From: Methanolobus sp.
GTDB taxonomy: Archaea > Halobacteriota > Methanosarcinia > Methanosarcinales > Methanosarcinaceae
Assembly (NCBI RefSeq): GCF_016278365.1
Contig: NZ_JADQBZ010000010.1
Location: 1-64,000, forward strand
Reading direction: 5' to 3'
DNA: 64,000 nucleotides
In this document: piece after piece, positions 12,032 through 24,160 of the stretch
Layout of the letters: each line of letters begins with the position of its first letter
Numbering within the stretch: the first letter of the stretch is position 1
Notes under the pieces: generated by a model
The model's database searches: none
What the model was told of the DNA's origin: nothing
The model's input: only the letters and a program-made list of their open reading frames with translations
Program-made: the position numbers and the translations under genes

Positions 12032-14029
12032 TTACAGGTCACTGTCAGTATCATTTATACCGATATCTTCCACGCAGGCACGCATGATCTCACCTACACT
12101 CCACGCCTGAGAGATGCATCCGCCCGGTGTGTGAGGTGCGTCACCATCGAATACTTCGGAAATGGTTCCAATACCTGCTTCTCCGAGGTGCCCTTTCAAC
12201 GCTTCGAGTAAAGTTATCATTTCCATTCTGCTATTGTTGGAGTCTCCGTTCACTTTTATATGTGCTGTTATGTATGGTCCGAGCAGCCAGGGCCACACAG
12301 TTCCGTTATGATAACTTGCGTCCCTGCTTTCCGTATTTCCTCGATAGACACCTACATAGCCGGGGTCTGAAGGCGAGAGTGTCCTGAGGCCATAAGGTGT
12401 CAGCAGTTCATCTCTGACAACATTCAATATACTCTTTTCAAGCTTCACAGAAAGCATTGTAAAAGGAAGCGACACGGCAAGGATCTGATTTGGCCTCACT
12501 GAGGCATCTTTCTGGTTAGTCTGGCCTGCTCTGCCTGAGTTTTCCGGGCCGGGAATGTAATCGTAGAGACAGCCTCTGTCCTCGTTCCAGAACTTTTCCT
12601 TATAGTTCTCCTTTGTGAGTTCAGCAAGCTCATGGAAACCGGAAGTTCCCATACCAAGCTGCTCTCCCATTAAAGATGCCTGCATCAGGGCATTATACCA
12701 GAGGGCATTTATTTCGCATGCTTTTCCTCTACGGGGAGTGATCTCCCTGTCCCCCACTTTCGCGTCCATCCAGGTAAGCTGCCCGCCATGGGATATCAGG
12801 CCATCCCTATCCATCCGGATGTCGTACTTTGTGCCTTTGTGGTAGTATCCGATGATGTCTTCTACGGTGTCCCACATGGTCCTGACGGAGTCCAGGTCGC
12901 CAGTATAGTCCAGGTACTTCCAGAGGGCATGAATAAACCACAGGGAAGCGTCCACTGTATTGTACACAGGCGGCTGGAACGGGTCATCCGGGAAAAGGTT
13001 GGGTATAAGCCCCTCATTGCAGCTGGATGCGAATGTTGTGAGTATTTCTCTGGCAACATCAAACCTTCCGGTAACAAGTGTCAGGCCGGGTATTGCTATC
13101 ATAGCATCCCTCCCCCAGTCTGCGAACCAGTGATAGCCCGCTATTAGTGACCTTGAGCCGGTGGACTGCCGGCTTACTATGAAAGAATCTCCTGCAGTAG
13201 CGAGCCTGTTGAGAAAATTCCCTTCTTGCCACAAATTCAGAGTGAGCTTGTTCCTTCGCTGGAGTTCACTTTCAAATAACCGGTTGACACCTTCTATATC
13301 AAGATGTTCTCTCATTGTAGTAGACGCAGAGACGAAGAAGGAAGAATTCCCTTTTCCAATATCCACCTCAAAGTACCCGGGATTGAAGTTGTCCTCTTGA
13401 TATGGATAACCTCTTGACCGTTCCTCTTCGTATTCGAGGTTATAATACCACCAGGCCTCCGGTATGAAATCCATATCTGAATGTAATTCCAATGTGCTCT
13501 GCCCGGATCTGATTAAAGTGCCTGTTTTGTGTGGATGCTGCTCAAACTCAATATTCCCTGATTTTGTCAGTCCGTGTATGTTCCTGTTATTAACAAGCGG
13601 GAATATCCTGAGGGTAGCACTTTTGCTATGCGGGTTTGAGGTATCATAGCGGATAACAGTCGTATTCTCCCCGTAAACCATCATTATGGTTTTTCTGAGT
13701 GCGACGTTTTCCATAAGATATTGGCATGCTGGAAAAGGCTCTGCAGAAAAATCATGCAGATAGCGGTAGCCTTCCGGGTATACAGTGCCGGGGTACTGGT
13801 GAACTGCAAGCTTATGTGTTTTCCCATTAACCTGTATCTCTTCGTCAAGGGACGAGAGTAACACCCTTCTGTTAACAGGAGGGTTCAGGGGTGCTACCAG
13901 CAGACCATGATACTTACGGGTGTTCATTCCGGTAACAGTGGATGAAGCATAGCCTCCAAGGCCGTTGGTGATTATCCACTCTCTGTCCGCACTTTTTTTT
14001 AACCAGGGTTCTTTGTCGGTAGTGGCCAT
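12032..14029 (-). CDS. Archaeal glycogen debranching enzyme (amylo-alpha-1,6-glucosidase)
   Basis: A 665-aa cytoplasmic glycoside hydrolase. The N-terminal module starts with EWIITNGLGGYASSTVTGMNTRKYHGLLVA, typical of the archaeal-type GDE N-domain. The C-terminal (alpha/alpha) barrel has HWFADWGRDAMIAIPGL, SLWFIHALW, TWMDAKVGD, and RPNQILAVSLP near the end. It removes alpha-1,6 branch stubs from glycogen. It is the last enzyme gene of a minus-strand run and follows the GH15 gene by 45 nt. Confidence 0.9.
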   Translation of the reverse strand: MATTDKEPWLKKSADREWIITNGLGGYASSTVTGMNTRKYHGLLVAPLNPPVNRRVLLSSLDEEIQVNGKTHKLAVHQYPGTVYPEGYRYLHDFSAEPFPACQYLMENVALRKTIMMVYGENTTVIRYDTSNPHSKSATLRIFPLVNNRNIHGLTKSGNIEFEQHPHKTGTLIRSGQSTLELHSDMDFIPEAWWYYNLEYEEERSRGYPYQEDNFNPGYFEVDIGKGNSSFFVSASTTMREHLDIEGVNRLFESELQRRNKLTLNLWQEGNFLNRLATAGDSFIVSRQSTGSRSLIAGYHWFADWGRDAMIAIPGLTLVTGRFDVAREILTTFASSCNEGLIPNLFPDDPFQPPVYNTVDASLWFIHALWKYLDYTGDLDSVRTMWDTVEDIIGYYHKGTKYDIRMDRDGLISHGGQLTWMDAKVGDREITPRRGKACEINALWYNALMQASLMGEQLGMGTSGFHELAELTKENYKEKFWNEDRGCLYDYIPGPENSGRAGQTNQKDASVRPNQILAVSLPFTMLSVKLEKSILNVVRDELLTPYGLRTLSPSDPGYVGVYRGNTESRDASYHNGTVWPWLLGPYITAHIKVNGDSNNSRMEMITLLEALKGHLGEAGIGTISEVFDGDAPHTPGGCISQAWSVGEIMRACVEDIGINDTDSDL

Positions 14030-14074: not shown

Positions 14075-16012
14075 CTATTGCAGACTATCAAGCATCAGTA
14101 TGTTGTCGATCATGAGGGCGCAGCTCCAGCTCAGGGGGATGGCCCAGGCAGGTTTTCCGCTATGTTTGTTTACCTGTTCCGGTAACAGTCCCGTACTTGT
14201 TGTGCCTCTGAGAGCCCATTCTATATATTCAAGAGCCTCTTCAAGCATTTTCCTGTATTCCTGTTCATTCCCTTTTCTTCGGGCTGACCCTGCAATCTCA
14301 AGCAAAGCTTTAGAGACCCAGAGTGTTGTTACAACCCAGGGATTGCCTTCAATATAATTATCTGTCTCGTAACGTTTTATCCCTTCATGGCCGTTCACAT
14401 GCACTGCGAGCTTTCTCTGAATTGTACGAATAGTGGAAAGGATCATTTCCCTTTCGTTTTCATCATCTGCGTTAAGCATGCCAAATGGCATGAACGCTCC
14501 CAGGATACTGGCATCGATCTCAGTGTCCAGCCTGCCATCAATCCTACCCCTTGCGAAATACCCCTCAGGCAGCCAGAACTCCCGGATAGTTGCTTCCTTG
14601 ATGATATTCGCTCTGTCAAGCCATCTTTTCCCGAGTTCCTTCTCATCGTATCCTGAAGCCATGTTAGCAGCCCCGGCAAGGCCTCCGTATATGGCAGCGT
14701 TTGTGTAGGTGAATATGCCTTTATATGATTCCCAGAGGCAGGTACATGGCTCATGAAGGCCGCCGATCGATCTCCTCATAAGATATTCGGCAGCCGGTAA
14801 AACACTTGGCCATATCTCGTTCAGGAAAGCGGTTCTGAGCGAAGGCTCCAGGCTTTGGTAATATTTGTCCATTGCAAAGAGTGTTGATCCTGTCTCATCT
14901 ATCTGGGTGGAGAAGTTGAAGTTCCCCCATGAAGAACCAAGGCTTCCATCCAGCCAGTAGCGCTGGAACCATGAGCCATCGGACATCTGGGTCTTCCTGC
15001 ACCATCTGAAGAAACGTAAGCAGAAGTCGGGATAACCGGCGTTGAGAAGCGCAACCACAGTTTCAGCAGCATCCCTGTTCCAGCAGTAGCCATAGCCTCC
15101 ACTCAGTTCAAAATCATGGTCAAATTCAGGCGCCGCTACAAAAGAGCCTTCTTTTGGGTCATTGAGAAGGGACAGGATCAGTAAAGAACGGTTGAAAGCG
15201 TTGATAAGATTCTCTCGGCTCTTATCTTCAAGTTGTGGCAATGTGATCTCTCTTTTTTGGGACAGCCAGCTGGTCTGATCCTCATACTCCTTCTGCACCC
15301 TCTTTTCCATAGTCTCATCGCTTATTGCTTTCATTTTACTGTAAAGCATCTCCCTTGTGGGCGCGGCACCAATAAAAATTGTTATTTCTTTAATTGAACC
15401 CGGCCCGATATCCAGTTCCCATCCAAGGGCACTGTTGAGCCTGCCTATTTCCTCACGTTTGTTCTGTAATTGCCCGTCCTGCATGTCGTGCAGGGCATTG
15501 GTCCATACATCCGAATCAAGTGCCCTGCCTATCTGCCATTCCCCGAACATGGGCTTTGAGGTGAGTCCCAGATGATAATTCCTTTTGTAATGTACAAGTA
15601 TGCCAGAATCAGGGTCGTAAAAGGCGGAATTCTTCTTTAGCGTCTCCCCAACCTGGAACTTCGAGTAATAAAAGAATTTACCCTTGAAACCTTCAGAAGC
15701 ACTTATCCTGTAATTACGGACCAGTATGGGAAGAGTGGGATGAGTGAGATCCAGGATGTCCATGCTTAGCCCGTCGGTGCGACTGAGGCGCGTGATCACA
15801 ACATTTGTATCTTCGATGTATCTCTGGGTAGCCTGCCACTCCTGATCCTCGGACCAGATAAGCCTGTTCCGGTCATACAGGCATGCCTGGGACTCTTCAA
15901 CATGCTGGGCAAAGTCCCTGCCCGGATAAAAGAATCCGAAAATCTCTGCTTTCTTTCCCATGGTAACAAGCAGTTCCCTGTTACCAAGTATCACGTTAGG
16001 TTGTCTTATCAA
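14075..16012 (-). CDS. Glycoside hydrolase family 15 (glucoamylase-like)
   Basis: A 645-aa protein. The N-terminal beta-sandwich (about 1-260) is followed by an (alpha/alpha)6 barrel with GGYGYCWNRDAAETVVALL, WFQRYWLDGSLGSSWGNFNFSTQIDETGS and CLWESYKGIFTYTNAAIYGG, the usual GH15 landmarks that include the catalytic acids. It likely releases glucose from alpha-glucans; trehalase activity in this family is an alternative. The TTG start has a GGGGGAGAT ribosome binding site close upstream. No signal peptide, so it is probably cytoplasmic. Follows the GH57 gene by 36 nt. Confidence 0.85.
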   Translation of the reverse strand: MIRQPNVILGNRELLVTMGKKAEIFGFFYPGRDFAQHVEESQACLYDRNRLIWSEDQEWQATQRYIEDTNVVITRLSRTDGLSMDILDLTHPTLPILVRNYRISASEGFKGKFFYYSKFQVGETLKKNSAFYDPDSGILVHYKRNYHLGLTSKPMFGEWQIGRALDSDVWTNALHDMQDGQLQNKREEIGRLNSALGWELDIGPGSIKEITIFIGAAPTREMLYSKMKAISDETMEKRVQKEYEDQTSWLSQKREITLPQLEDKSRENLINAFNRSLLILSLLNDPKEGSFVAAPEFDHDFELSGGYGYCWNRDAAETVVALLNAGYPDFCLRFFRWCRKTQMSDGSWFQRYWLDGSLGSSWGNFNFSTQIDETGSTLFAMDKYYQSLEPSLRTAFLNEIWPSVLPAAEYLMRRSIGGLHEPCTCLWESYKGIFTYTNAAIYGGLAGAANMASGYDEKELGKRWLDRANIIKEATIREFWLPEGYFARGRIDGRLDTEIDASILGAFMPFGMLNADDENEREMILSTIRTIQRKLAVHVNGHEGIKRYETDNYIEGNPWVVTTLWVSKALLEIAGSARRKGNEQEYRKMLEEALEYIEWALRGTTSTGLLPEQVNKHSGKPAWAIPLSWSCALMIDNILMLDSLQ

Positions 16013-16048: not shown

Positions 16049-17251
16049 TTAGTGCCTGATTTCCTTTAATTTTCGGAATACCATTTCCTTGAAATCCATC
16101 ATTGCAGCCATGAAATTGATTCCTGCCTCATAGGGTGAGGAGTGTATACTGAAATATGAGTGTATGTCACCATCACCTAGCCACTTTGTGCTCATGTAAT
16201 AGTAGTGGTCCGAGGTTAGCAGGTGTTTCCATATCTTTAGGAGCTCCGGATCCCCGGTGGCTCTCACATAGGGCCCGAGCAGTTTAGCTTCCTCGAAGCA
16301 GCGCCGTTGCATATCATTGCCAAGCCAGGCGCTGGTATCTCTTTCAATATCTGCCCATGAAATGGTGGAGAAATCCCCTGCATCGATATCACCTGCAGGG
16401 GTGTATCTGCTTACAGTCTCCGAAGGAGTAAGGAATTGCATTCCACGGTCTATGACCTCGCCCGGGAGCGCTCTCAGGAAGGCGAATATGCCTGTATCCA
16501 TCCACTGGTGCTCTCCGAATGTCTCGTAATCCATAAAGATGTTGGCCGTCTCCCCTGCACTGCGGGACACCCAGTCAGCCCATTTATTTGCAGTTAGCGG
16601 ATACTCTTCCCACCAGCGCGATGAAAAGCGATAACCAATATCATCGCTTAACTTATAGTTCCTGAGCAGTACTGCTATGTTGCCATCTCTGGCTTTGTAT
16701 ACATGATTTGGCGAGCGGCCTTCAAGAACCCTCTCAATACCTTCTGTAAGTATGGCTTTGTATCCCATTTTTTCAGCAAGGGCAGCTATGCTGTTGTTGT
16801 ACAGCAGTTCTGTGTTCCTGAACACCTTAGGTTCAAAACCCAGCAGAGTTGACATTGCTGCACGGTGTTCCGTCACCTGTTCAATGAACTCGTCACCTGA
16901 CTCGAAAAGTGATGCAAGGGAATGATAATAGGTCTCATCGATGAATTCCATGCACCCGGTATCAGCAAGGTCCCGGAATGTTTCCAGCACATCTTCTCCC
17001 CATCTTTCACACTGGCTCAGGAGAGTGCCTGTGACAGACATACTTAGTTTCAGCTTCCCTTCGTTCTCATCGATAAGTTCCAGTATGGTGCGATTTGCAG
17101 GCAGATAACATTTTTCTGCAACCCTCCTGAATATCTCCTTATTGACATCATCATCGAAATATCTTCCAAAGCCTGCTGACTTGCTGTCAGGCCAGAACCA
17201 TTTGAGCCTGTATGGCTGGTGCACCTCAAAGTAGAAACAAACGGATCTCAT
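16049..17251 (-). CDS. GH57 alpha-amylase-type enzyme
   Basis: A 400-aa cytoplasmic glycoside hydrolase. Conserved region 1 (FEVHQP, residues 8-13) is intact. The presumed nucleophile is Glu148 (FRNTELLYNN) and the presumed acid/base is Asp241 (FMDYETFGEHQW). This is the GH57 alpha-amylase layout seen in methanogens (MJ1611-like). It likely cuts internal alpha-1,4 links of glycogen. Its ATG overlaps the stop codon of the upstream GH57-like gene by 4 nt, so the two are translationally coupled. Confidence 0.87.
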   Translation of the reverse strand: MRSVCFYFEVHQPYRLKWFWPDSKSAGFGRYFDDDVNKEIFRRVAEKCYLPANRTILELIDENEGKLKLSMSVTGTLLSQCERWGEDVLETFRDLADTGCMEFIDETYYHSLASLFESGDEFIEQVTEHRAAMSTLLGFEPKVFRNTELLYNNSIAALAEKMGYKAILTEGIERVLEGRSPNHVYKARDGNIAVLLRNYKLSDDIGYRFSSRWWEEYPLTANKWADWVSRSAGETANIFMDYETFGEHQWMDTGIFAFLRALPGEVIDRGMQFLTPSETVSRYTPAGDIDAGDFSTISWADIERDTSAWLGNDMQRRCFEEAKLLGPYVRATGDPELLKIWKHLLTSDHYYYMSTKWLGDGDIHSYFSIHSSPYEAGINFMAAMMDFKEMVFRKLKEIRH

Positions 17252-18378
17252 TTGCCTGCCTCTGTCAAAGCACGTTTCATATCAGAAAGTATGGAGAAAT
17301 TATTGACCGCTTTCTCGTATCCCAGACGCTGGCTTTCAGCATTCATCTCAAGGAAGATGTCGCTCTGCTGAAGGTAGCGGTATATGGTCTGCAGCTTAGT
17401 ATGGTCATCATGCATTTTAAGTTTATCAAGTTCCTCCCCGATGCTCTGCAATTCATGCATATAGAGATGCTGAGCATGATTTCCTAAAAGATTATGCATT
17501 CCATAACGTGCAGTTTTCTTTGAATGCAGGGAAGGTAATTCTTCCTGCCTGAACCTGCTGGCGGCATCTTCCGGGAACACCATCTCAATACCACGTACTG
17601 ACAGGCTTCCCGGCAGGTCTTTCAGGAACTGCACGATTTCAGCATCTCTCTGCAGGTGGATATGAAGTGAATCATACCTGATGTATAACGTTATTACATC
17701 CCCTTCCATGGCAGCTATCCATGAAGCGAATTTTTCGGCTATCAGCGGGTATCCCGGCCATTTCCTGTCCGAGAGCCTTTTCTCAACATCCTCGCTCAGG
17801 TCAATTTGACGCAGCAGGGTTGGAACACTATTTTTGTACACATAAGCCGGACTACATCCGTTCACTATATTATGAGATCCTTCTGAGATAAAACACTTAA
17901 AACTGAAATCCCTGCAGACCTCAATTGTCCTCTGTTCAAGAAGCAGTTCCGGATTGATGAACACAGCAGGTTTTATACCGAACAGCTCTTTCAGGGAATC
18001 CATGTGCATACTGACCTGCCCCTTAAACTCTTCAAGACCTGGGAATAGGGGACAGACCGAATGATAGTAAGGGGATGCTGCAAGGTTTGCCCCTCTATTC
18101 ACAAGCTGCCTGAAACTGTCAAGTATCGCAGGCTCCCATTTGCATTGTTCCAGAAAGACCCCGGATATATCAAGGGTGTACCTGCCTCCGGCTTCCATGG
18201 AATCCATTAATGCATTATTCAGGATACTGACATCCTCTTTCAACCTGATGAAACTATTGTATGTTTTTTCCATCTCAAAATACTTTTCAAGAGCCGGAGC
18301 TCCATATCCCTCGCGCGGCCAGTACCATCTAAGGGGTAATGGAAGATGGACCTCAAAACACACGCAGACAGCTTTCAT
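17248..18378 (-). CDS. GH57-like protein with degraded catalytic site
   Basis: A 376-aa paralogue of the next gene, alignable along most of its length (FEVHLPLPLRWYW; PYYHSVCPLF; INPELL; PAYVYK). The nucleophile-position Glu144 is kept (NPELL). The HQP motif is HLP, and the segment matching FMDYETFGEH reads LYIRYDSLHI, so the acid/base Asp is Arg234. It is therefore probably not a normal hydrolase; alpha-amylase-like homologues lacking one catalytic residue are known in GH57. A glucan-binding or partner role for the coupled active GH57 is the natural inference. It ends in a 4-nt overlap with that gene. Confidence 0.82.
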   Translation of the reverse strand: MKAVCVCFEVHLPLPLRWYWPREGYGAPALEKYFEMEKTYNSFIRLKEDVSILNNALMDSMEAGGRYTLDISGVFLEQCKWEPAILDSFRQLVNRGANLAASPYYHSVCPLFPGLEEFKGQVSMHMDSLKELFGIKPAVFINPELLLEQRTIEVCRDFSFKCFISEGSHNIVNGCSPAYVYKNSVPTLLRQIDLSEDVEKRLSDRKWPGYPLIAEKFASWIAAMEGDVITLYIRYDSLHIHLQRDAEIVQFLKDLPGSLSVRGIEMVFPEDAASRFRQEELPSLHSKKTARYGMHNLLGNHAQHLYMHELQSIGEELDKLKMHDDHTKLQTIYRYLQQSDIFLEMNAESQRLGYEKAVNNFSILSDMKRALTEAGK

Positions 18379-18390
18379 TTGCTTTCTCTC

Positions 18391-19317
18391 TCATTCCTTT
18401 GTTCCTTCCTGCAACTGAGGGAGGTTATTTGTCATCTCTTCTGTCAGAACATCACTTTCTTCTTCAGGAAGATGATCTTTTCCATTGCCTGAAAGTTTCC
18501 TTGTCTGTAATTCGCCTGCGAACCACACGGTCCTCTGCGGGAAGGGTATCTCTATCCCATGTTCTTCCAGTGTCTTTTTAATGACCAGGAGAAGCCTGGT
18601 TTTCATCTCGTACCACTCTGTGATCGGAGCCCATATCCTTACTATTATATTGATCGAGTTATCACCAAGGTTGTTCACAAAGATGCTGGCGGGAGGATCT
18701 ATCAGAGCAAAGGGTTCGCTATCTATGATCTCCTGAATGATACGGATAGCTTTTTCCGCATCATCGCTATAGCGGATTCTCACAACATACTCAAATCTCC
18801 TTGTAATGTTAGCAACGTAATTAGTTATATTAGTTGTGAATACCGTCTGATTAGGTATCCGCATGTATAGTCCTTCATAGGTCCTTATGATTGTGGAGAA
18901 TATGTTGATATCCTCCACGAATCCGACATTATTGTCAATACTGACCTGGTCACCTATCTTTATAGGTCTTTCAACTATCAGGAAAAAACCCGATATAAGG
19001 TTTCCCACAATGCTCTGGCTCGCAAAACCAATAACTATACCCAGCACTCCTCCTGTAACCAGAATGCCTGAGCGTTCTATTCCTGTCAGCGGGAGAATGA
19101 ACACTACAATAGCCAGTGTTATTATACCGTAATAGCCTACCTTAAGCAGGATATCAAGATGTCCCTTGTCGATCTTGTCCTTAAGCGATCTCTGCAGGTA
19201 TATCGTCAACCCTTTTCCAATGGCAATGGCAATAATGAGTACAAATACTGCACCTACCGTGTTGAACACGATACCAGGAATGGTTGGCAGGGAGCTGATA
19301 ATTTCGGTAACGTTCAT
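18391..19317 (-). CDS. mscS: MscS-type mechanosensitive channel
   Basis: A 308-aa membrane protein with three N-terminal helices. The pore helix is Gly/Ala-rich (GGVLGIVIGFASQSIVGNLISGFFLIVE, about 92-118). The beta domain follows (RPIKIGDQVSIDNNVGFVEDI, RIPNQTVFTTNITNY), then the alpha/beta domain ending IPFPQRTVW. The channel opens under membrane tension and lets solutes escape on hypo-osmotic shock. It overlaps the upstream DUF432 gene by 4 nt and lies 12 nt downstream of no other gene but the GH57-like gene it precedes, placing it inside the glycogen run. Confidence 0.9.
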   Translation of the reverse strand: MNVTEIISSLPTIPGIVFNTVGAVFVLIIAIAIGKGLTIYLQRSLKDKIDKGHLDILLKVGYYGIITLAIVVFILPLTGIERSGILVTGGVLGIVIGFASQSIVGNLISGFFLIVERPIKIGDQVSIDNNVGFVEDINIFSTIIRTYEGLYMRIPNQTVFTTNITNYVANITRRFEYVVRIRYSDDAEKAIRIIQEIIDSEPFALIDPPASIFVNNLGDNSINIIVRIWAPITEWYEMKTRLLLVIKKTLEEHGIEIPFPQRTVWFAGELQTRKLSGNGKDHLPEEESDVLTEEMTNNLPQLQEGTKE

Positions 19318-20033
19318 ATCCCATGCTCCATAATGCCTTTAATGCTGCTAAGCGTCAGCTTACGGGCAGTGTATAGTTCCATGGACCTCCTGAATTCAGG
19401 TGTCGTAGTATATGTCATGAAGCCAGTTTCAGCCAGGTTCCTGCTAACAACCCTCATGAAAGCTCTCATTGATGTGCGATCAGTTCCGTAATATATTTTC
19501 ATGCCAAAGGCATTGAACACGGATTTCTTCACTTCTATCCAGTTATTTGTGTCATTTATGATATCAAGTTCGATATCTCCCTCGTATCTGATGTCCAGAT
19601 TGGGGTAGGATGCGAATACTTCGCTCTTCCAGTACCTGCACATTATCCCATGGTTCGGGGTCCCATAAAGGGTGTATTTGGACATGTTGAGGGTGAACAT
19701 ATCGATAAGTTCGTGTTCTCCTTTCCTGCTACTGATGAATATACCCATTTCCACAGGGAATGTAAGGTATATCTTTTGCTTGCTTGCGGGCCCTATCATT
19801 ATCGGCCGTTCGAAATCTATAAGCAGGAAAGATGTTATCGGCTTTGGCAGGTTCACAGGCTCGATGGGGTTGATCAGGAAATCCCCGTCAGCATCAAGGA
19901 TCAGCTTTTCGGTGGTCTCATAAGCGCAGGTCCTTCTGTATATCAGGTTCCCTTGCTCTTTTTCCACCGATATCTCATGGCCTTCGTAATTAATAGTGAA
20001 AGGGGGAGTATATTTGTCAAACATTTGGATCAA
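19314..20033 (-). CDS. DUF432-like protein
   Basis: A 239-aa soluble, beta-rich protein without signal peptide or obvious membrane helix. Its extended pattern (PPFTINYEGHEISVEKEQGN, KPITSFLLIDFERPIMIGPA, KIYLTFPVEMGIFI) resembles the archaeal DUF432 family, which I recall next to MscS genes in methanogens. Function unknown. The 4-nt overlap with mscS supports a linked role, perhaps as a channel accessory. Starts TTG 20033 or ATG 20024; neither has a well-spaced ribosome binding site. Confidence 0.65.
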   Translation of the reverse strand: MIQMFDKYTPPFTINYEGHEISVEKEQGNLIYRRTCAYETTEKLILDADGDFLINPIEPVNLPKPITSFLLIDFERPIMIGPASKQKIYLTFPVEMGIFISSRKGEHELIDMFTLNMSKYTLYGTPNHGIMCRYWKSEVFASYPNLDIRYEGDIELDIINDTNNWIEVKKSVFNAFGMKIYYGTDRTSMRAFMRVVSRNLAETGFMTYTTTPEFRRSMELYTARKLTLSSIKGIMEHGI

Positions 20034-20040
20034 CTATTGT

Positions 20041-21105
20041 TTAAAGCCACCTTTTCCTGCGGAAATACACTAACATTGAAACGGATATCAGCGCCATTAT
20101 TGTCCAGGCTGCCGGATATCCCCATTCCCAGCCCAGTTCAGGCATATGCTCGAAGTTCATGCCATAGACACCTGCTATGAAAGTTAGCGGGATGAAAATG
20201 GTGGCTATTATCGTCAGGGTTTTCATGACCTCGTTCATCTTATTACTAACGCTCGAGAGATAAACATCCATTATGCCGGAAGTAATATCGCGATAAGTTT
20301 CTGCAGTCTCTATTATTCTTATGGTGTGATCATACAGGTCCTTGATGAACACCATTGTCACGTTCTCGATAAGCGGAGACTCGGAGCGATCCAGCCTGTT
20401 TATGACTTCTCTAAGAGGCCATACAGACCTGCGAAGATAGATTATCTCTTTTTTGATCCCATGGATATCCTGAAGGATCACAGGTGTGGGATTCTCTATC
20501 ATATCATCCTCAAGCACTTCCAGTAATTCTCCTATCTTTTCCAGCACAACGAAATAGTTGTCTACTATCGAGTCCATCAATGCATAAGCAAGGTAACTGG
20601 AACCTACTGAACGGATGCGACCCTTTGAGGTCCTTAATCTTTCTCTTACGGCATCGAAAGTATCTCCTTCGGCTTCCTGGAAGGAGATGACAAATCCCGG
20701 ACCCAGAATGATACTGACCTGTTCAGCTTTCACGTCCGAAGTGTCCTCGTCGAACTGCAACATCTTCAGTACCAGATAGATGTAGGACCCGAAGTCCTCC
20801 ATCTTGGGACGCTGGTCTGTGTGGACGATGTCTTCCATTACCAGGGGATGCAGTCCAAAGTGCGCTCCTACCTTCTCAATGATCTCTACCTGATGCACAC
20901 CATCGACATTTATCCAGGATACGGTTTCTGTGTCCTTACAGAGGAAGCAGTCTTCGATGTTCTCTACGGTTTTTTCCTCAAAGGTATCCTTATTATAATC
21001 GATCAGAGTGATCCTGGGATTACCAGTTTTTGCCTCGCCTACATGGATGATTGTTCCCGGAGCAAGACCTGCTTTTTTCGACGCTCCTGATGCTATTTTT
21101 CTCAT
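20041..21105 (-). CDS. corA: CorA-type Mg2+/divalent cation channel
   Basis: A 354-aa protein. A large N-terminal cytoplasmic domain (about 1-290) includes VMEDIVHTDQRPKMEDFGSY. Two C-terminal helices follow, with the signature YGMNFEHMPE (GMN at about 321-323) between them and a basic tail (YFRRKRWL). This is the homopentameric CorA design. It overlaps the upstream GT4 gene by 4 nt, so Mg2+ entry is translationally linked to glucan synthesis genes. Confidence 0.93.
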   Translation of the reverse strand: MRKIASGASKKAGLAPGTIIHVGEAKTGNPRITLIDYNKDTFEEKTVENIEDCFLCKDTETVSWINVDGVHQVEIIEKVGAHFGLHPLVMEDIVHTDQRPKMEDFGSYIYLVLKMLQFDEDTSDVKAEQVSIILGPGFVISFQEAEGDTFDAVRERLRTSKGRIRSVGSSYLAYALMDSIVDNYFVVLEKIGELLEVLEDDMIENPTPVILQDIHGIKKEIIYLRRSVWPLREVINRLDRSESPLIENVTMVFIKDLYDHTIRIIETAETYRDITSGIMDVYLSSVSNKMNEVMKTLTIIATIFIPLTFIAGVYGMNFEHMPELGWEWGYPAAWTIMALISVSMLVYFRRKRWL

Positions 21106-22265
21106 TCGATTGCCTTCAGGTAGACCTCGGTTGTTTTTTCTGCTATCTTGTCCCAGTTGTATTTATCCTTAAGGAGTTTCCTTCCTTCCATGCCAAGCTG
21201 CCCGTCAGCATAATTGTCAAGCACATGATTGATTCCCCATGCAATGGAATCAGGTGTCTGGTATACTGTCACTCCATTATGGAAGTTGTCAATAAGCTCT
21301 ACTGCATTTGTCGCAACAATATTCTTACCTGCATCCCATGCTTCCAGCAGCACTATCCCGAATGGCTCGTTACGGCTTGGAACGCACATAAGGTTACAGG
21401 AGTTCACCCACTCCTTTTTCGTATTTTCACTTGCATAGCCCAGAAAGTGGCAGCTGCTGTAAACACCAAGCTTGCGTGCAATATCCTCGCATACTGGTCG
21501 CATCTCACCTTCACCTATGAGGACGAATCTCACATCCCACCTGTTCTCAAGGACTTTCGGTATGGCCCTGACGAGAAGGTCCGGTCCTTTCTGATAGTTC
21601 ATACGGCCCACGAACAGGACCACAGGTGCATAAGGGTGAATGCCATAAGCGGACTTCACTTCTCCCGGAACGACCTCCATCCTCATCTTGTTCTCAGTGA
21701 GTCCGTTGGGTATTATCGATATCTTGTAGTCGGGTATCTGGTAGAGGTGCTGGATCTCAGCTTTCAATGCCCGGGAGGTGGAAATGACCTGCGATGACTC
21801 ATATCCTTCTCTCCATTCCCTGTGGCTGATCTCAATAGCTTCCTGCCAGTTGCCATGAACGTTGCCGTTCCTTCCCCACTCTGTGCTATGGTAAGTAGTA
21901 ACAAAAGGTATACCTGCTTCAGCTTTTAGCCTGCTGACCACATTCACAGGATGCCAGTCATGTACATGCACAACGTCAAAATTGCCGAACCTGTGCACAC
22001 TTTCCCAGAAAGCAGAGTGCATGGCATCACACATGCTGTCCATCTGTTGCACTATACCTCCATAGAGCGAATGATCTACCCTGTGATAATGGACCCCGTT
22101 GACAATATCATAGGGGTTCATATCTTTATTTCGGGTGAATATGTGTACTTCATGGCCTCTTTCTGCGAGGGCTTCTGCAAGTTCTGAAACATGAGGGGCA
22201 AGTCCTCCCACATTCACCGAGTAAAGGCTTTCCCATGCGAACATCGCAATTTTTAATGTTTTCAT
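21102..22265 (-). CDS. GT4 glycosyltransferase, glycogen-synthase-like
   Basis: A 387-aa GT-B enzyme. The N-terminal nucleotide-sugar domain begins KIAMFAWESLYSVNVGGLAPHVSELAEALAERGHEV. The stretches DVVHVHDWHPV, TYHSTEW, ISIIPNGLTEN, LFVGRMNYQKGPDLLVRA and the EX7E-like PSRNEPFGIVLLEAW are all present. It transfers a glucosyl (or other) residue from a nucleotide sugar; glucan elongation is inferred from the neighbouring glycogen genes. Downstream overlap with corA by 4 nt; upstream gap of 98 nt to the GT3-like synthase. Confidence 0.85.
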   Translation of the reverse strand: MKTLKIAMFAWESLYSVNVGGLAPHVSELAEALAERGHEVHIFTRNKDMNPYDIVNGVHYHRVDHSLYGGIVQQMDSMCDAMHSAFWESVHRFGNFDVVHVHDWHPVNVVSRLKAEAGIPFVTTYHSTEWGRNGNVHGNWQEAIEISHREWREGYESSQVISTSRALKAEIQHLYQIPDYKISIIPNGLTENKMRMEVVPGEVKSAYGIHPYAPVVLFVGRMNYQKGPDLLVRAIPKVLENRWDVRFVLIGEGEMRPVCEDIARKLGVYSSCHFLGYASENTKKEWVNSCNLMCVPSRNEPFGIVLLEAWDAGKNIVATNAVELIDNFHNGVTVYQTPDSIAWGINHVLDNYADGQLGMEGRKLLKDKYNWDKIAEKTTEVYLKAIE

Positions 22266-22363: not shown

Positions 22364-24160
22364 TCACTCCATCCTTGTTCCCGTGAGAAGTTCATAATAT
22401 TCCCTGGTCGGTGCTCTCCAGTTCATGTCTTTTGCAAGCAGGCTGGCCTCCTGGCAGAGCAGGTTGTACTTGACCTTGTCAGCGATGTAAGTGTCTATAA
22501 AATAATCCATGGCAAGAGCATAGTCAGCTATGGATTCAATATAGGCAAGATTGATGTTGTCAACAACGATCACCCCTCCCATTCCCATAACAAGTCGTTT
22601 GAGAGTATTGAGGGCGTCGCTGAAACCGCATATTTTGCTAACTATGCTTGGTGTCGCCTCTTTCCCGGCTTCCAGTCCAGTTAGCAGGAAGGGTTCATAC
22701 TTCGAAGGGAAGATACCGGCAATGCAGCCAGACATAAACTCATCAGTGGTCATATTAAGTCCGCCGTCATGCTCAGAGAGCCACTGGGGATAAAGTACTG
22801 CAGCAACATGCCTTTTTCCATCCGGAACATGAGTGCAATCAAGTCCTTTGGATTCTATCATTTGCTGGAGTCTTATCTCTTCTCCTATAAGGACCTCTTC
22901 AGGCAGATAAATGGGAAAGTTCTCAGGAGTATTTGTTTTTGGTCCATGGGCAGCTACAATGAAACAGATCACTCTGTAATTCTCGTCAAGTTGCCCTGCA
23001 TCTATCTCGGTCTTTACCATTCTGTCCAGTACGACAAGGGAATCAAGCAGGTCCGGATAACCTTTATTCTCGACCTCGATACGGGAGATAGAGAAAATAG
23101 GCACGATCCTGTCCGGAGGGATGACCTTGCTGTCAAATACGTTGTATATTTTCTCTGAAAGGAATTCCTGTATCTTCTTTCGGTTAGCGGTCTTTTTGGC
23201 CCATTGGATGTCGCTGCTGGGTAGGTCTATGCCGTTACGTACTACTATTGGGTCAATGCCGTAGAACAGTTTCACTTCTTTGCGTGTAGAGTCCCCGACA
23301 GCGGTAACTACATCGGCATGTGATGAAAGGGATTCAAGTTTTGCGAAACTGGCGGGTACTCCGCTGTCCCAGGAACTGTCCTTTTCTCTCACTTTTCGGA
23401 CCGAGCGGTGGCCTGCGACCCTGCCGGGTATCGTAGCATGGTACGTTGCAACAGTATGTACACCCGCCCCCAGCTTCTCAAGCCGTGCGGCCGCATAGAA
23501 TACCCCAAATTCATGGCAGTGAAGGGAAACCTGCACTGATGGCAAAAGAGAGGCTGCAAATTCTGAGACTGCCTTATCACTATATTCCGAGTCATCTTTT
23601 CTACCGGCGTTTACAAGTAAGCGGACAAGTTCCGATATAGCATAGGACAGATTGAGATAATGTGTGTATTCCATACCATTATTCAGGCTTTCATAATGCA
23701 GCGAGTCCAGTCCAATGAGATCATATGCCTCAGCTTTTACCCTGCTTGAAAGGCACATGCGCTCTTGCTTGTATTCAGAACTGATAACATTAAAGTCGTT
23801 TGTTTTGAACATAACATAAATAATATCAATATCACTCACTTTGCCGGAACCCACATGTGTCTCTATGCCCTGGGAATTAAGCTGTTCCAGAGCGGAAAGG
23901 AGTTCTTCTTCGGGCTCATAGTCACTGAAGATACTCATATCAGTGATACGGTTCAATCCCTTGTTCCAGTCAGCTCCGCTGTGCCCGTAGTAAGGTCCTG
24001 CAACTATGATCCTCGGTACTTTTCCTTCCCCTATGTCACCGTCCTTTATCATTTGTGCAAGGTTTCTTGCTTCAGCATCAATAACATTCCAGATGCCTCC
24101 CATCTTATTCGATCTTGGCCCTGCTTCTTCACCTGCTATGACTATGAACCTGCTTTCCAT
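22364..24160 (-). CDS. GT3-like glycogen synthase
   Basis: A 598-aa GT-B protein resembling the eukaryote-type (GYS) glycogen synthases. Visible landmarks are the N-terminal EEAGPRSNKMGGIWNVI (nucleotide-sugar loop), SLHCHEFGVFYAA, TYHATIPGRVAGHRS, VVRNGIDL, and FMSGCIAGIFPSKYEPFLLTGLEAG as the donor-site loop. It would extend alpha-1,4-glucan from UDP- or ADP-glucose. It is the first enzyme gene of the minus-strand glycogen run, with a GGAGCT-like ribosome binding site. Confidence 0.83.
   Translation of the reverse strand: MESRFIVIAGEEAGPRSNKMGGIWNVIDAEARNLAQMIKDGDIGEGKVPRIIVAGPYYGHSGADWNKGLNRITDMSIFSDYEPEEELLSALEQLNSQGIETHVGSGKVSDIDIIYVMFKTNDFNVISSEYKQERMCLSSRVKAEAYDLIGLDSLHYESLNNGMEYTHYLNLSYAISELVRLLVNAGRKDDSEYSDKAVSEFAASLLPSVQVSLHCHEFGVFYAAARLEKLGAGVHTVATYHATIPGRVAGHRSVRKVREKDSSWDSGVPASFAKLESLSSHADVVTAVGDSTRKEVKLFYGIDPIVVRNGIDLPSSDIQWAKKTANRKKIQEFLSEKIYNVFDSKVIPPDRIVPIFSISRIEVENKGYPDLLDSLVVLDRMVKTEIDAGQLDENYRVICFIVAAHGPKTNTPENFPIYLPEEVLIGEEIRLQQMIESKGLDCTHVPDGKRHVAAVLYPQWLSEHDGGLNMTTDEFMSGCIAGIFPSKYEPFLLTGLEAGKEATPSIVSKICGFSDALNTLKRLVMGMGGVIVVDNINLAYIESIADYALAMDYFIDTYIADKVKYNLLCQEASLLAKDMNWRAPTREYYELLTGTRME

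Follow-up and report, generated by a model that had tools for sequence, protein, structure and literature searches.

The window analysed here is a stretch of 64,000 nucleotides from a Methanolobus sp., whose genome measures 2.87 Mb and is 99.89% complete. It carries a glycogen gene string of nine minus-strand genes in succession, running from 24160 to 12032. Following the direction of the string, these encode a GT3-type glycogen synthase, a GT4-type glycosyltransferase, a protein that we take to be of the CorA type, a DUF432 protein, an MscS-type channel, two GH57 proteins, a GH15 protein and an archaeal debranching enzyme (Table 1). The first of the two GH57 proteins is a paralogue without the acid/base aspartate and the second is an intact enzyme; we refer to them as INACT and ACT, respectively. 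Similarity to PF03065 places INACT in GH57, and NCBIfam assigns no family to INACT or ACT.

Table 1. Coordinates of the GH57 pair, its sites and the neighbouring glycogen genes in the window.
Feature	Position	Strand	Evidence or remark
GT3-type glycogen synthase	22364..24160	-	PF05693 58.3 bits, cut-off 27
GT4-type glycosyltransferase, same gene string	21102..22265	-	PF00534, PF13439
INACT, 376 aa, GH57 paralogue lacking the acid/base Asp	17248..18378	-	ORF; Pfam PF03065 166.1 bits, cut-off 21.2
Leu12 codon of INACT (HQP to HLP)	18343..18345	-	alignment and orthologues
Glu144 codon of INACT (nucleophile position retained)	17947..17949	-	alignment and orthologues
Codon for Arg234 of INACT, where ACT has the acid/base Asp	17677..17679	-	pairwise alignment
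C-terminal helical part of INACT, residues ~287-369	17272..17520	-	12 of 35 conserved positions specific for INACT lie here
GAGG, Shine-Dalgarno-like motif of ACT within the end of the INACT coding sequence	17259..17262	-	7 bases before the ACT ATG
ATGA, overlap of INACT stop and ACT start, 4 bases	17248..17251	-	same overlap in 89/98 genomes
ACT, 400 aa, GH57 enzyme, catalytic pair Glu148/Asp241 complete	16049..17251	-	ORF; PF03065 288.2 bits; residues
Asp241 codon of ACT (acid/base)	16529..16531	-	alignment and orthologues
GH15 glucoamylase-type protein, next after ACT	14075..16012	-	PF00723; TIGR01577 709.5 bits, below cut-off 820.7
Archaeal glycogen debranching enzyme (amylo-alpha-1,6-glucosidase)	12032..14029	-	PF06202, PF12439; TIGR01561 632.7 bits, cut-off 364.15

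Distribution and layout of the gene pair

An order-wide search covered 185 genomes and gave a match in 108, from 98 of which INACT could be extracted (the copy at L097 is cut by a contig end). ACT is located directly downstream on the same strand in all 98, either whole or cut by a contig end or N. The gap between the two genes is -4 bases in 89 genomes, 2 to 13 bases in eight and 122 bases in one. A Shine-Dalgarno-like tetramer precedes ACT in 97 of the 98, any of six loose G-rich tetramers being counted without a chance control. An earlier note on this DNA had proposed translational coupling of INACT with ACT, and the overlap and constant adjacency agree with such a layout; since the conservation spans 98 genomes, chance is ruled out for this observation.

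The other ten matching genomes comprise six of family f4 with a single ACT-type match and four of family f1 (G075, G076, G174 and G184). In G075, G174 and G184 contig ends are found where INACT would lie, and second, weaker matches were also counted in these genomes; in G076 the contig covers no more than the initial 21 residues of a GH57 gene. Altogether, the 111 genomes of family f1 divide into 90 with the pair, 17 with neither gene and four cut by contig ends.

The class search covered 237 genomes and the phylum search 392 genomes drawn from a larger group. In both, all rows with at least 394 bits belong to families f1 to f3, and the next rows score 296 and 286. Two f6 genomes, belonging to the same class, carry a distant INACT orthologue, which likewise immediately precedes ACT (313 columns against the INACT profile, E 4.6e-40). 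For the phylum's other families, 18 stretches surrounding ACT-type genes were examined, and no INACT was detected at E 1e-4. ACT-type genes without INACT are present in the six f4 genomes and in most f7 genomes having a match. Eleven f7 genomes were inspected closely, with one ACT-type match in ten of them and two in G187; second matches were also counted in G194 and G220. In one f6 genome (G185; L139/L179) the ACT gene contains an in-frame TAG, which could be a sequencing error, next to an open INACT gene, and ACT is open in the sister genome G186. Three Bacteroidota GH57 records from a plasmid collection, including NZ_OY725759.1 (48683-49828), are distant relatives with 25-29% identity.

The surroundings of the pair vary between genera. 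Just before INACT, the window has the MscS-type channel and the DUF432 protein within the glycogen string (18391-20033); an MscS gene adjoins INACT mainly in the genus of the window and in g12 (L050, L053), hinting at a link between glycogen and osmotic state. In other genera, a protein of about 270 amino acids is encoded between the GH57 enzyme and GH15 (L138:636-1442, minus strand; also L137), and in the window GH15 follows the GH57 enzyme directly. The L138 copy contains the domain named ACT together with a V4R domain, and this protein may regulate the glycogen genes in response to a ligand.

Absence of the pair coincides with absence of other glycogen genes. The debranching enzyme (TIGR01561) was found in 94 of the 111 f1 genomes, and the 17 without it are the very genomes without the pair. 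GT3 was found in 86 of the 111 and is absent from all 17 pairless and from eight pair-bearing genomes, counts obtained partly by subtraction with five of the 25 negatives unlisted. Pair-bearing genomes without a GT3 glycogen synthase match include G138, G103, G104, G145 and G171 (the last by subtraction), which are 97-99% complete. Because the joint absence covers the whole glycogen module, it does not single out ACT as the partner of INACT. In genus g10 the pair is present in three of eight genomes. According to PMC6491703, glycogen enzymes are predicted for just two species of Methanohalophilus; this would agree with the pattern if g10 is that genus.

Rather than being a subunit of ACT, INACT might bind glucan as a free-standing protein that belongs to the glycogen particle or to glycogen synthase, with its adjacency to ACT resulting from origin by tandem duplication and from a shared operon. 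Its location in one string with GT3, GT4, GH15 and the debranching enzyme, its joint absence with the whole module and the retention of 32 enzyme-wide positions (see below) are all consistent with such a protein. However, ACT is the neighbour in 98 of 98 genomes, whereas the debranching enzyme is located elsewhere in g13 genomes, and eight pair-bearing f1 genomes (one by subtraction) have no GT3 match. We therefore regard a free-standing function as a doubtful possibility.

Active-site residues and fold

INACT and ACT are identical at 92 of 285 positions in a pairwise BLASTP (32%, E 7e-55). The earlier note had read from the sequence that HQP is changed to HLP in INACT, that the acid/base Asp241 is replaced by Arg234 and that the Glu at the nucleophile position is retained. 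All three readings are borne out by the alignment, in which ACT Asp241 pairs with INACT Arg234, ACT Glu148 with INACT Glu144, and Leu12 stands in place of Gln. Glu148 and Asp241 of ACT in turn correspond to Glu123 and Asp214 in the solved 4-alpha-glucanotransferase of T. litoralis (weak match, E 0.022); we take the latter two to be its catalytic residues. Throughout the 98 ACT orthologues, the His, Gln and Pro of HQP as well as Glu148 are present in 97 of 97 readable sequences and Asp241 in 94 of 94.

The picture for INACT is different at the acid/base column, where the 98 orthologues have Asn (43), Lys (35), Asp (15), Arg (4) or Ser (1). The nucleophile column contains Glu in 92, Gln in four and Asp in two, and Leu occupies the position of the Gln of HQP (position 12) in 85 of 98. 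On the tree at least seven changes are needed in the acid/base column among 46 INACT rows, and Arg is confined to one clade. The orthologue alignment, a check that the earlier note had itself suggested, shows that Arg234 is not a conserved feature, and with only four of 98 orthologues from a single clade a role as a functional substitution was rejected. Arg234 itself is incidental; the widespread trait is the loss of Asp (83/98) within a broader loss of active-site residues.

This broader loss was delimited by comparing 97 INACT, 93 ACT and 36 outgroup rows (35 from INACT-free genomes and one f6 ACT). Forty-four positions are conserved in at least 95% of ACT and at least 80% of the outgroup rows and are found in less than 20% of INACT, including Asp241, most of CSR-4 and His349/Tyr351/Tyr352. 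Deletions contribute to these losses: a five-residue gap in SWADxERD and a 12-residue gap behind the tyrosine pair. Conversely, 32 enzyme-wide positions are retained in at least 90% of INACT. Active GH57 alpha-amylases have both the catalytic Glu and Asp, and INACT of the window has Arg234 instead of the latter. They also have two tyrosines at the end of CSR-5; Tyr351/Tyr352 of ACT, which in our own mapping onto the available part of PMC6037648 are CSR-5 positions 35/36, correspond to Leu343/Glu344 in INACT. In missing at least one catalytic residue, INACT resembles the GH57 alpha-amylase-like group.

INACT could nevertheless still be an enzyme, using another acid residue or catalysing a different reaction with Glu144 as nucleophile. 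Glu is present in 92 of 98 orthologues and Asp in 15, and six INACT proteins of family f2 (L098-L103) retain HQP, Glu and Asp together, while their other site residues are gone. In the window protein, Asp236 lies two residues past Arg234. An alternative Asp in the acid/base position, which would have contradicted the earlier note, is not what Asp236 represents, since its column is not conserved (Asp 35, Thr 23, Ser 15 and Gly 10 in 97 rows), and it was rejected as a substitute acid/base. In addition, the nucleophile is Gln in four and Asp in two of the 98 orthologues and His in the f6 proteins of both genomes with matches, which also have a shortened barrel, and the tyrosine pair and two enzyme-conserved segments are replaced or missing. 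For INACT in general we consider remaining catalysis decidedly unlikely. The residues of the f2 branch leave activity conceivable there, and the f2 proteins are likely intermediates between enzyme and pseudoenzyme.

When solved structures were searched by sequence, the INACT match was no better than chance (E 0.61) and the ACT match was weak (E 0.022); because of this weakness structure models were used. The models are of moderate confidence, with a mean pLDDT of 72 for INACT and 68 for ACT. The INACT model matches 7e1y best (Z 25.2, rmsd 4.4, 343 aligned residues) and also 9ihu (Z 23.7, rmsd 4.1, 326 aligned), and the best solved match of the ACT model is 9ihu (Z 24.2, rmsd 3.7, 328 aligned). 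We take the first 18 rows of the INACT comparison to be GH57 proteins, by title or by family. Both models have the GH57 fold, and its incomplete barrel and helical bundle are present in that of INACT.

Thirty-five positions are specific for INACT (at least 90% in INACT, less than 15% in ACT). Twelve of them are located in the C-terminal part, which makes up about a quarter of the length and contains long conserved motifs; this excess is only mild, and a concentration of INACT-specific positions there was rejected. The f6 orthologue retains seven of these 12 positions versus five of the 23 in the barrel. With so slight an excess of INACT-specific positions, the C-terminal part can be proposed only very tentatively as the contact surface of INACT. 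On the side of ACT, 22 positions reach at least 95% conservation in paired ACT and less than 15% in the outgroup, including Asp313, Arg316 and Arg317 in a bundle helix and Trp357, Leu358 and Asp360; they are candidates for a contact surface and no more. Covariation of ACT column 313 with INACT column 301 was dismissed, as there is too little variation in the 92 pairs (D/H 84, D/K 4, Y/H 2, D/N 1, D/R 1).

Age and selection

In a tree of 48 rows INACT forms one side of a single branch (SH-aLRT 100). ACT of the paired genomes likewise forms one side of a branch with a support of 76, or 93 when the f6 ACT is added, and the f4 ACT-type rows are placed elsewhere. The tree comes from a quick search and covers only ACT-type relatives among GH57, and the program warns of long branches meeting between INACT and ACT. 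An interpretation of f4 as a case of INACT loss was rejected, since the f4 ACT-type genes lie outside the paired clade; f4 may never have had the pair.

In 15 comparisons per gene, some with high dS values, dN/dS ranges over 0.06-0.21 in INACT and 0.03-0.11 in ACT. Outside the nearest relatives, local identity to the window proteins is 37-64% for INACT versus about 63-83% for ACT. INACT is therefore an old gene that changes more quickly than ACT and is subject to purifying selection. Its faster evolution and the lost catalytic residues are also what a decaying duplicate without function would show, but the low dN/dS, a single open frame in each of the 98 genomes (L097 being cut by a contig end) and the long conserved C-terminal motifs make such decay highly improbable. 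The GH57 paralogue without acid/base residue postulated in the earlier note is thus, by sequence, a selected and non-decaying pseudoenzyme; it stays adjacent to ACT and is absent jointly with it in 17 of 111 f1 genomes.

Role of the pair and comparison with known systems

On balance, we lean towards INACT being a non-catalytic partner of the GH57 enzyme ACT, and the dead GH57 copy is probably a helper of the live enzyme in methanogen glycogen metabolism. An old GH57 duplication would have given rise to INACT, which would then have lost its catalytic apparatus. INACT would be translated just before ACT, probably by coupling. We infer that it most likely binds ACT in a physical complex, plausibly via the C-terminal helical part as surface, that it may hold an alpha-glucan chain with the partly retained barrel residues His11, Trp18-Tyr19-Trp20, Asn142, Glu144 and Trp207, and that it would stabilise, activate or direct ACT on glycogen.

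It might also be possible that the two proteins are subunits of one enzyme that branches glycogen or transfers glucan, in which INACT would hold the acceptor and ACT would cut and transfer the donor chain. A whole-genome search of the window genome gave no match for GH13 or for the BE_C domain (PF09210), and the only two GH57 matches are INACT and ACT, yet a debranching enzyme is present. This makes the pair a candidate for the missing branching enzyme of GH13-less Methanosarcinales. The BE_C domain typical of GH57 branching enzymes is lacking in both GH57 proteins of the window. A GH13 match is present in 29 of the 90 pair-bearing f1 genomes and in none of the other 61, some genomes being incomplete, and because the M. 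acetivorans control genome has a GH13 match as well, the link to branching is loose. We consider a two-subunit branching enzyme unlikely. A 2024 review (PMC11046441, section 3.4.2) raises the question of whether the GH57 amylases of archaea are the branching enzyme that is missing, and refers to a mutant of the GH57 amylase in Sulfolobus whose glycogen is strongly reduced.

That GH57 homologues with incomplete catalytic residues exist, as the earlier note had stated, is documented: Table 1 of PMC6037648 counts 126 GH57 alpha-amylase homologues missing one or both catalytic residues, 60 of them archaeal. These alpha-amylase-like proteins resemble INACT in the missing residues; in the available parts of that paper they are handled as sequences, with no gene pairing or subunit role, whereas INACT is encoded by a paired gene. 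The sole characterised GH57 alpha-amylase in the same table is the one from Methanocaldococcus jannaschii, which is presumably of the type of ACT. The legend of an archaeal table in PMC11046441 mentions 'one inactive isoform'. PMC11708016 was discarded as a precedent for a pseudoenzyme in glycogen metabolism, since its available part concerns a PLP synthase.

Searches of open-licence papers yielded no report of a coupled, co-lost pair with a subunit role and no prokaryotic dead partner subunit in alpha-glucan metabolism; the statement of the earlier note that a paired operon role is not established agrees with this. Should INACT be an obligate subunit, a function would be gained for GH57 'like' proteins dismissed as inactive. 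Assays of Methanosarcinales GH57 enzymes that used only the active gene would then have measured an incomplete enzyme, and the question of glycogen branching in these methanogens would become testable by co-expression of the two genes.

Plants offer known examples of dead partner subunits in alpha-glucan metabolism. In the ISA1/ISA2 pair, an alpha-glucan hydrolase likewise has a homologous partner, ISA1 is catalytic and each protein is destabilised without the other, according to the available part of PMC3787081; in contrast to INACT and ACT, these are plant debranching enzymes of GH13 with a proven complex. In trypanosomes, the live enzyme is activated when it assembles into a heteromer with its dead paralogue, as described for AdoMetDC/prozyme and for deoxyhypusine synthase in the available parts of PMC5201418 and PMC3663545; these pairs differ from INACT and ACT in being unrelated, eukaryotic enzymes without operon coupling. 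The methanogen pair shares with such heteromers that a homologous dead partner is retained with the live enzyme, adjacent in 98 of 98 genomes and, in f1, together in 90, both absent in 17 and cut in four. Possibly, INACT and ACT work in a manner similar to plant ISA2 or the trypanosome prozyme.
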